Source of the DNA: Orbus hercynius
GTDB taxonomy: Bacteria; Pseudomonadota; Gammaproteobacteria; Enterobacterales; Orbaceae
Direction of reading: 5' to 3'
Assembly: GCF_003634275.1 (NCBI RefSeq)
Contig: NZ_RBWY01000002.1
Location: forward strand, 62,001 to 126,000
Length of the DNA: 64,000 nucleotides
Shown: positions 29,887-36,560 of the stretch, in pieces
Layout: each line of letters starts with the position of its first letter
How positions within the stretch are numbered: the first letter of the stretch is position 1
Notes under the pieces: model-generated
Told to the model about the DNA's origin: nothing
What the model saw: only the letters and a program-made list of their open reading frames with translations
The model's database searches: none
Translations under genes and position numbers: made by a program

Positions 29887-32015
<2,129 letters not shown>

Positions 32016-32064
32016 TTTATAACCCATCAGTTAGTATTTTATTACCAATATTGATAAATAATAC

Positions 32065-32094
32065 TTGATTTTGCAAATGATAATTATTATCATT
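32065..32094 (+). promoter_or_regulatory. promoter of ryhB overlapped by a perfect Fur box
   Basis: TTGATT (32065-32070) and TATCAT (32088-32093) are 17 bases apart. The spacer and -10 are covered by AATGATAAT-T-ATTATCATT (32076-32094), a perfect 19-bp palindrome that includes the 7-1-7 Fur core TGATAATTATTATCA (32078-32092). Fur with iron would block the promoter, as at E. coli ryhB. Confidence 0.9.
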
Positions 32095-32099
32095 AATGA

Positions 32100-32194
32100 G
32101 TGCTCTAGCAGATAAGCAGTACATCTCAAGAGTATGACATTGCTCACATTGCTTCCAATGTTTGCCAGCTTAATAATTTAGGCTGGCTTTTTTT
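32100..32194 (+). ncRNA. ryhB: RyhB-type iron-responsive small RNA
   Basis: A non-coding RNA of about 95 bases. Bases 32136-32157 (GACATTGCTCACATTGCTTC followed by CA) are, as far as I can recall the sequence, identical to the conserved pairing core of E. coli RyhB. It ends in an intrinsic terminator: GCCAGC (32164-32169) pairs with GCTGGC (32182-32187), extended by a TAA/TTA inner stem, then seven T. E. coli RyhB ends with the same GCCAGC/GCTGGC arms. The start near 32100 is set by the promoter and Fur box. In enterics RyhB, with Hfq, silences iron-using proteins when iron is scarce. It sits alone between obgE and the nucleoside cluster. Confidence 0.92.
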
Positions 32195-32312
32195 GTCCTT
32201 TACTCATCTAAAGTTCCGTTTTATTCCGTTTATAATAGTAAGTTATGACGCTTATCACCCTTTTTTTGCTAGCTTCATTCTATAATGAGCTACCTAATTG
32301 AATGAGGTGATT

Positions 32313-33193
32313 ATGTTTATAATAGAACGACAAAGAGTAATCTTAGCTTATTTAGATAAACATGAGAAAGGAACGGTCGAATACTTTGCTAACCAATTTT
32401 ACGTTTCAAAAGACACCATTAGAAAAGATTTATCTGCGCTAACCAAACAGCATTTAATTACTCGCTGTCATGGCGGCGCAATGATTTTGCGCCATCAATT
32501 CACCCGCACCGTGACATCAACCGAGAATATCTCAGCGCTATTAACCCAATATAAAAAGCAAAAAATTTTGTTGCCAAAGTTGGTCAAGACCAATTTAGCC
32601 AGTTTGCTTATGATCACCTCACTTCATCAAAAATTGACTCATTTATCTTATATCAGTCACAAACTGAGCCTACCGGTAATGCGGTGATTTATGTCTCTGA
32701 AGAAGATGCTGAAAACATGATTACTATCTATAGTGGTGCCAATTTAACGATGACAGATGATGAGATTATGGCACTTGAGACTAAGCTCAAACAGCCAATA
32801 TTTTCCTCGTACAACTGGAAAATAATTTTGATGCCACCTATAACGCGATGAAACTGGCAAAAAGCTTGGGTAGCACTGTTGTGCCAAACAAGCCGCGGAA
32901 AAGATTTATACGATGGGAGTTCGCACAGTTATTATTGCATTAGGCAGTAAGGGCGCACTGATATTTGATGGCCAAACGCATCAATATATCGAGCCGTTCA
33001 AAAAGGTTGCAATTGATACAACCGGAGCGGGTGATGCCTTTAATGGGGCACTGTGTGCCTGCTTAGCAAAAGGCCAAACGACCTCGCAAGCAGCGACTTA
33101 TGCAGCAGCCTTTGCCTCATTGCCGTTGAGCGCGAAGGGGCAGCCAACATGCCATCTCATCAACAAGTTTTACAACGAATGACTATACAGTGA
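32313..33193 (+). pseudogene. decayed DeoR-type regulator fused to a ribokinase (PfkB)
   Basis: The reading frame from ATG 32313 (GAGGT upstream) encodes a DeoR helix-turn-helix (VEYFANQFYVSKDTIRKDLSALTK, split; then RCHGGAM). Near 32575 the frame shifts to a ribokinase segment VGQDQFSQFAYDHL and on to SGANLTMTDDEI. Near 32815 it shifts again (ENNFDATYNAMKLAKSLGS). After about 32890 another frame gives AAEKIYTMGVRTVIIALGSKG and the catalytic DTTGAGDAFNGAL. A last shift near 33118 recovers AVERE-GAANMPSHQQVL, ending TGA at 33191-33193. At least four lesions are needed, and about 45 N-terminal kinase residues are missing. It probably once controlled and served the nucleoside hydrolase and transporter genes downstream. 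Confidence 0.88.
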
Positions 33194-36008: not shown

Positions 36009-36560
36009 CTAGCTTTTAAAGAAATTATCTTGGTGTTTATCTAAATCAAACAGAATTAACAACGCGGCACTGCCACCAAATTCTTTTGGCGCCTGATGAA
36101 AACAGATAATATCAGGATGCTGAGCAAGCCACATCGGCGTTTGTTTTTTCAAAATATTTTTACCATGACCATACATCACGCTAGCACAGGGTATACGCTC
36201 ACGAATACAGGCCGTAATGAGGGCTGCGATCTCTTTTTTCGCCTCATTTTGTGTTAAACCATGCAGATCTAAAAACAATTCTGGTTCATAAAATCCTTGG
36301 CGTAGCTTTTTAAGTTCGCTCGGATCTGCCTCTTCACGGCAATAACGAATCGGATCGTCTAACAATAACGGCTGGAAATCATCAGAAAAATAAAATTCAC
36401 TATTGATCGTTTCTTGTTGTTGTTTTTTCTCGATCAGCACCGTTTTATTGGCACGAGCAGGAGCATGAACAACCGTGTCTTGTTTTAGCTTTTTAGCATT
36501 ACCGATAACATTTTTAAATAATGCTAATTCTTCGTCACTTGGACGATAATTTTTTGACAT
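36009..36560 (-). CDS. smrB: ribosome rescue endonuclease SmrB (YfcN)
   Basis: SmrB cleaves mRNA at collided ribosomes and starts their rescue. The length, 183 residues, equals E. coli. The Smr domain (about 95-175) has the diagnostic DLHGLTQNEAKKEIAALI and YGHGKNILKKQTPMWLAQHP; the N-terminal region includes the conserved FSDDFQPLL. E. coli has GHGKH where this protein has GHGKN, a change in the second motif. It is six bases from nth, an arrangement different from E. coli, where smrB is next to prmB. Confidence 0.93.
   Translation of the reverse strand: MSKNYRPSDEELALFKNVIGNAKKLKQDTVVHAPARANKTVLIEKKQQQETINSEFYFSDDFQPLLLDDPIRYCREEADPSELKKLRQGFYEPELFLDLHGLTQNEAKKEIAALITACIRERIPCASVMYGHGKNILKKQTPMWLAQHPDIICFHQAPKEFGGSAALLILFDLDKHQDNFFKS

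Follow-up and report, generated by a model that had tools for sequence, protein, structure and literature searches.

A ryhB small RNA gene beside obgE in Orbus hercynius, and a possible shift of its regulon towards fermentation and biosynthesis

The window analysed here, a 64,000-nucleotide stretch of the Orbus hercynius genome, contains a gap behind the gene for GTPase ObgE (obgE; 30852–32015, plus strand) in which a sequence-only reading had proposed a gene for the small RNA RyhB. RyhB is an established small RNA with which bacteria economise on iron; that of Escherichia coli is about 90 nt long and its gene has a Fur box. The locus raises two questions: whether the gap holds a true ryhB, and what such an RNA would regulate in the Orbaceae, a family from which classic RyhB targets appear to be missing.

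We found that window 32100–32195 on the plus strand is a genuine ryhB gene, ordinary in kind, encoding an RNA of ~95 nt whose 5′ end is a prediction from the promoter. In a scan of the window, the Rfam RyhB model (RF00057) covers 32128–32195 at 56.3 bits (cut-off 55, E 8.7e-08), which is a covariance match just where one had been anticipated, with a margin over the cut-off of only 1.3 bits. At the gathering score the whole-window Rfam scan returns three matches, namely two tRNAs and RyhB, and the RyhB model hits one place in the entire O. hercynius genome. Agreement with the model is confined to the core and the terminator. The 22-nt seed core GACATTGCTCACATTGCTTCCA is present without a change at 32136–32157, as had been noticed from the letters, and is embedded in a longer conserved core, TATGACATTGCTCACATTGCTTCCAATGTTT, with seed repeats ACATTGCT (32133–32163, plus strand), delimited by alignments of family loci. 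The core is followed by a Rho-independent terminator (32164–32194, plus strand) that has a 10-bp stem at 32164–32187 and a T-run; it is the sole terminator in 31990–32340, where shuffled sequences have a mean of 0.1. The 96-nt ryhB strand folds at −30.2 kcal/mol, with a z-score of −3.4 against shuffles, of which 1 in 200 was equally low. The terminator described in the sequence-only reading is thus present, and the above-cut-off model score, the exact core and the terminator together bear out the proposed RyhB identity, which computation shows along with the Fur box and the terminator. We also agree that protein-based annotation would miss the gene, since a non-coding gene is by nature overlooked by such annotation.

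The gene is preceded by a putative sigma-70 type promoter (32065–32093, plus strand) composed of TTGATT at 32065–32070, a 17-bp spacer and TATCAT at 32088–32093, and the position of the −10 element would put the transcription start near 32099–32100. This is the sole promoter-like pair in 31990–32340, but shuffles of the same stretch average 2.4 such sites, and the promoter match alone is therefore no evidence. The −10 element lies inside a perfect 9-1-9 palindrome of 19 bp, the Fur box AATGATAATTATTATCATT (32076–32094, not assigned to a strand), and both elements were found where the earlier reading had placed them. The 15-bp centre of the box, TGATAATNATTATCA, occurs exactly once in the window and at four places in the genome, ryhB included; the other three sites precede genes for a Peripla_BP_2 protein, an Nramp transporter and a TonB-dependent receptor. 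Fur-type sites with up to two mismatches number 2 in the window versus a shuffle mean of 1.0, and, per strand of the genome, 132 versus 41 for a reversed control. Among Orbaceae, 43 loci have the core; their best 19-mer differs from the Fur consensus used by 0 mismatches in 14, 1 in 26 and 2 in 3, and the Fur box and the −35 element are recognisable by eye throughout 39 distinct regions. Hence, a Fur-type promoter in front of ryhB is supported at the level of sequence. The O. hercynius genome contains one hfq and two FUR-family genes. In this genome, the exact Fur box at L117 (1501–1515) stands ~39 bases ahead of the gene for an Nramp-type metal transporter.

A RyhB match is present in 42 of 44 Orbaceae genomes and in all 39 of those of good quality. 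The family set includes three other genomes of the same genus as O. hercynius. The cut-off is reached in 34 of the 44, with 8 of the 42 matching genomes falling below it. An even draw across the order, Orbaceae included, gave a match in 153 of 394 genomes. The EamA protein encoded nearby, used as a query, yielded 25 loci, every one of which carries the name Gilliamella, Frischella or Orbaceae. The motif ATGACATTGCTCA is found in 43 of the 44 loci read, which span all 42 genomes with a match (one genome twice). The 44th locus, without the motif, is a weak second match of genome G043 (31.4 bits); it is 4 bases off the core and was set aside as a probable chance match.

When identical regions were merged (55 family loci giving 39 distinct regions), the alignment revealed a nearly invariant core and a diverging 5′ third. 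The terminator stem was followed in an alignment of 19 sequences picked by hand, in which 96.2% of the pairs are standard and 5 of the 10 pairs have changes on both sides; the covariation score is 0.272 versus a shuffled mean of 0.152, and none of 500 shuffles reaches it. Conservation of the gene is therefore a computed result in its own right. Two variants of the core were seen. Gilliamella sp. App6-5 has three ACATTGCTC-type seed repeats, not two (L042, 8385–8415; L276, 1523–1553), and one family genome has an additional A inside the core.

The position of ryhB next to obgE had been read as the result of a move. What this amounts to is a difference from E. coli, where, in one record (strain E308), ryhB is flanked by yhhY and yhhX. 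Within Orbaceae the obgE neighbourhood is family-wide: obgE adjoins ryhB or is within ~2 kb of it in 42 of 42 Orbaceae genomes with a match. The computed synteny thus shows that the obgE neighbourhood of ryhB is old in Orbaceae. This count combines the first 30 loci, in 28 of which obgE is inside a 3-kb stretch with both exceptions from one genus, with 12 more genomes and, for the exceptional genus, longer pieces of sequence. In one Orbaceae genus, obgE and ryhB are ~1.3–1.9 kb apart, and the genome of this genus that was read in detail has a lipoprotein-like ORF in the interval (L278, 3570–4457). On the other side, smrB and nth are downstream of ryhB in most of the 55 loci examined; in the window, smrB is at 36009–36560, beyond the nucleoside genes. 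A nucleoside hydrolase beside ryhB is found in the window's own locus only, among 55 loci and 16 stretches, many with ~1.5 kb of downstream sequence.

Several observations were made in passing at these loci. In the window, 32298–33182 contains a stretch with a DeoR-type HTH (32313–32687) and the final 89 residues of a ribokinase (32913–33179). Both pieces lie ahead of the genes for the nucleoside hydrolase and the uridine transporter, at a spot where one expects a complete regulator and kinase, and are likely remnants. A search of the ribokinase remnant against viral contigs found no relative. In G047, a 2.5-Mb genome from another family of the order, the exact RyhB core is present (L279, 1989–2010), with no obgE in the 4 kb read. 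The feature table of E. coli E308 (L280, 2501–2639) has no feature over ryhB and skips one locus-tag number between yhhY and yhhX; because the number is skipped just there, the table may lack a feature. None of five listed E. coli RyhB matches has a feature on it.

Since model agreement is limited to the core and terminator and the 5′ third is unconserved, one may ask if the gene is instead a convergent Fur-controlled RNA, of the HrrF type of Pasteurellaceae or the PrrF type, that shares only a short seed with RyhB. The HrrF of Pasteurellaceae, Haemophilus influenzae among them, which we compared by its description, is a Fur-repressed RNA of ~97 nt with conserved positions 29–64, but it lies between pmbA and hpt and is reported to have no sequence similarity to RyhB (PMC4144887). 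In Orbus the upstream neighbour is obgE, not pmbA or hpt, and the RyhB core is exact. PrrF of Pseudomonas (RF00444) resembles the locus in having an upstream Fur box and a terminator. In a permissive Rfam scan of 31800–32500, however, PrrF scores 23.2 bits, below its model threshold of 90, versus the 56.3 bits of RyhB, and other families are far below their cut-offs. We consider convergence extremely improbable. That the RNA is dual-function, encoding in addition a peptide that is either RyhP-like or read from an in-frame ORF at ATG 32134, is very unlikely as well. All 43 core-bearing loci have an ATG at the opening of the core, giving a 15-aa ORF in O. hercynius, and a peptide, RyhP, has been proposed for E. 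coli O157:H7 (PMC5331693). The frame equivalent to RyhP, however, has no stop across 20 codons to 32198, which is beyond the RNA end. The ORF from ATG 32134 is 12 to at least 39 codons long, depending on the locus, so that it always runs into the terminator; the constancy of its first codons follows from that of the seed; and no strong ribosome site is apparent by eye. Both peptide-coding readings were checked and found unsupported. The homologue of E. coli RyhB is the reading we retain, the likeness in core, terminator and Fur box over the promoter having been judged through the model and not by direct RNA alignment. Taken jointly, the identity as RyhB and an iron-sparing mode of action are close to certain in our assessment; expression, Fur binding, Hfq use and target repression are the inferred parts of it.

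What would the RNA act on? The Sdh_cyt family (sdhC/D) is over its cut-off in none of the 44 Orbaceae genomes, with one sub-threshold match, while the E. coli control was positive. A Fe/Mn-family superoxide dismutase is present as one match each in 40 of the 44 genomes. The O. hercynius enzyme scores 329 bits with the Mn model versus 164 with the Fe model, under both curated cut-offs, and so looks Mn-type; over the first 110 residues, as far as they align, 35 other superoxide dismutases share 75–87% identity with it. Unlike E. coli, therefore, O. hercynius has no detected sdhC/D, and its Fe/Mn superoxide dismutase looks Mn-type, and these classic RyhB targets, sdhC/D and the Fe-type superoxide dismutase, appear to be absent from Orbaceae. 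A study of 95 Gilliamella genomes reports that the TCA cycle has at most a minor role and that 62 of the 95, as well as O. hercynius, have a partial cycle (PMC11325843).

Candidate targets were not chosen by gene name; instead, all perfect complements of the two seed repeats, AGCAATGT[CG], were listed. There are 46 of these 9-base complements in the genome, 2 in ryhB itself and 44 elsewhere. A site was kept if it was in the sense orientation, had a start codon at −12 to +75 bases of the site start and was outside any other ORF of 100 aa. Five sites pass this rule, at leuC (isopropylmalate isomerase), katA (catalase), hemA, nifJ (pyruvate:ferredoxin/flavodoxin oxidoreductase, for which we take E. 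coli ydbK to be the homologue) and ftnA (ferritin). Going by family names, we take four of these genes to encode iron or heme proteins and one to start heme synthesis. The permuted motif GACAATGT[CG], under the same rule, retains 4 of 40 sites, at genes for TolA, a methyltransferase, ClpP and TssJ, none of which is, presumably, an iron protein. The computed enrichment is thus 5/5 versus 0/4 (one-sided Fisher p 0.008), against one control motif only and with "iron gene" judged post hoc. Six seed sites that would suit a possible start were excluded because they fall within longer ORFs (L099, L101, L102, L108, L137 and L146), and the exclusion was applied equally to the permuted control. Five seed sites outside ORFs of 80 aa were left uncounted: L089 is in sense ~170 bases before leuS, which is not an iron gene; L109, L144 and L145 have no close downstream sense gene; and L148 crosses a doubtful 87-aa ORF and is ~300 bases before a 69-aa ORF. 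The sod start was considered as a target, but its longest run is 8 nt in the O. hercynius genome, and it was used as a control.

The predicted targets overlap in part with the known regulon. An E. coli RyhB target table includes ydbK and katG, so that PFOR and catalase are shared between the table and the Orbus predictions, and codes ftnA as I, which we take to mean indirect (PMC4666370). The heme synthesis targets named for E. coli in another report are hemB and hemH, not hemA (PMC10991938).

Conservation of the pairing was followed in 18 of the 44 family genomes, from five genera and including O. hercynius, and, for sod, at the starts from 36 of the 40 genomes with the gene; a nifJ paralogue (L258) and duplicates of our own stretches (L186, L204) were dropped, and the relatives counted are not independent samples. 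Contiguous pairing of at least 9 nt, with G-U allowed, occurs for nifJ in 17/18, leuC in 17/18, katA in 11/13, ftnA in 6/8 and hemA in 9/18 genomes, versus 4/36 for sod and 4/49 for window genes. Nearly universal 9-nt pairing among the relatives examined is hence restricted to nifJ and leuC. The motif AGYAATGT is kept in 13/18 nifJ, 11/18 leuC, 4/8 ftnA, 3/13 katA and 1/18 hemA stretches, and in 2/36 for sod; by conservation, hemA and ftnA are the weakest predicted targets. When shuffled cores were paired with the real stretches, the mean energy of the true core was reached by 0 of 50 for each of the five genes and by 2 of 50 for sod. Against shuffled targets, the mean z-scores lie only between −1.5 and −2.3, and that of sod is −1.5; the stretches that beat 95% of their own shuffles are 8/18 for leuC, 11/13 for katA, 9/18 for hemA, 7/18 for nifJ, 4/8 for ftnA and 9/36 for sod.

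These numbers bear on a further alternative, that the gene is rightly identified as a RyhB homologue but the five sites are chance matches at start codons and the real regulon is elsewhere. AGCAATG contains the start codon, a natural context in which such seed sites arise easily; the hemA and ftnA sites are poorly kept among relatives, and the shuffle z-scores are modest and near those of the sod control. On the other hand, a chance origin sits poorly with the iron and heme genes found by the seed and not by its permutation, and with the nifJ site, whose place in the leader keeps it away from the start codon. In O. hercynius this site pairs 12 nt with no mismatch, 26–37 nt before the start codon (any one 12-mer is expected ~0.28 times in the genome at equal base use), and among relatives AGYAATGT holds its aligned register in the nifJ leader while much of the leader diverges. 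We therefore regard chance matching as unlikely, though it retains real weight. With the five sites read as targets, nifJ is the best-supported prediction, and the putative regulon is the part worth following. The regulon as named, with nifJ and leuC central, katA next and hemA and ftnA less certain, would in our estimate have roughly an even chance of being correct.

In the mechanism that we propose, Fe-Fur would occupy the palindrome over the −10 element when iron is plentiful and keep ryhB off. When iron is short, the 95-nt RNA would be made and probably be bound by Hfq, and its core TATGACATTGCTCACATTGCT would pair with sites of the AGCAAUGUC type, either at the start codon or in the 5′ leader, and thereby reduce the synthesis of iron-using proteins. 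The main targets would be the pyruvate:ferredoxin/flavodoxin oxidoreductase and isopropylmalate isomerase, followed by catalase, with heme synthesis and ferritin as less certain targets. The regulon is predicted to centre on nifJ and leuC because Orbaceae appear to be without the succinate dehydrogenase anchors and the Fe-type superoxide dismutase.

A literature search found no report joining RyhB with Gilliamella, none on Orbaceae, small RNA and iron together, and, among the 10 of 108 matches listed, none joining RyhB with Orbaceae, Frischella or Orbus; the sequence lists of Rfam may already include some Orbaceae ryhB loci. For this family of animal-gut bacteria as a whole, with its apparent loss of succinate dehydrogenase and apparent use of an Mn-type superoxide dismutase, the evidence is evenly poised in our view for a regulon that has shifted, under an almost unchanged RyhB seed, to fermentation and biosynthesis, with nifJ first, then isopropylmalate isomerase, catalase and the entry to heme synthesis. 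If this is true, iron sparing in these bacteria would act on pyruvate oxidation instead of the TCA cycle. If the targets hold, the gut symbionts of bees and flies would be a natural test of how a seed is retained while its targets turn over after the loss of a pathway, and ryhB would provide a concrete marker of the iron response in gut symbionts.
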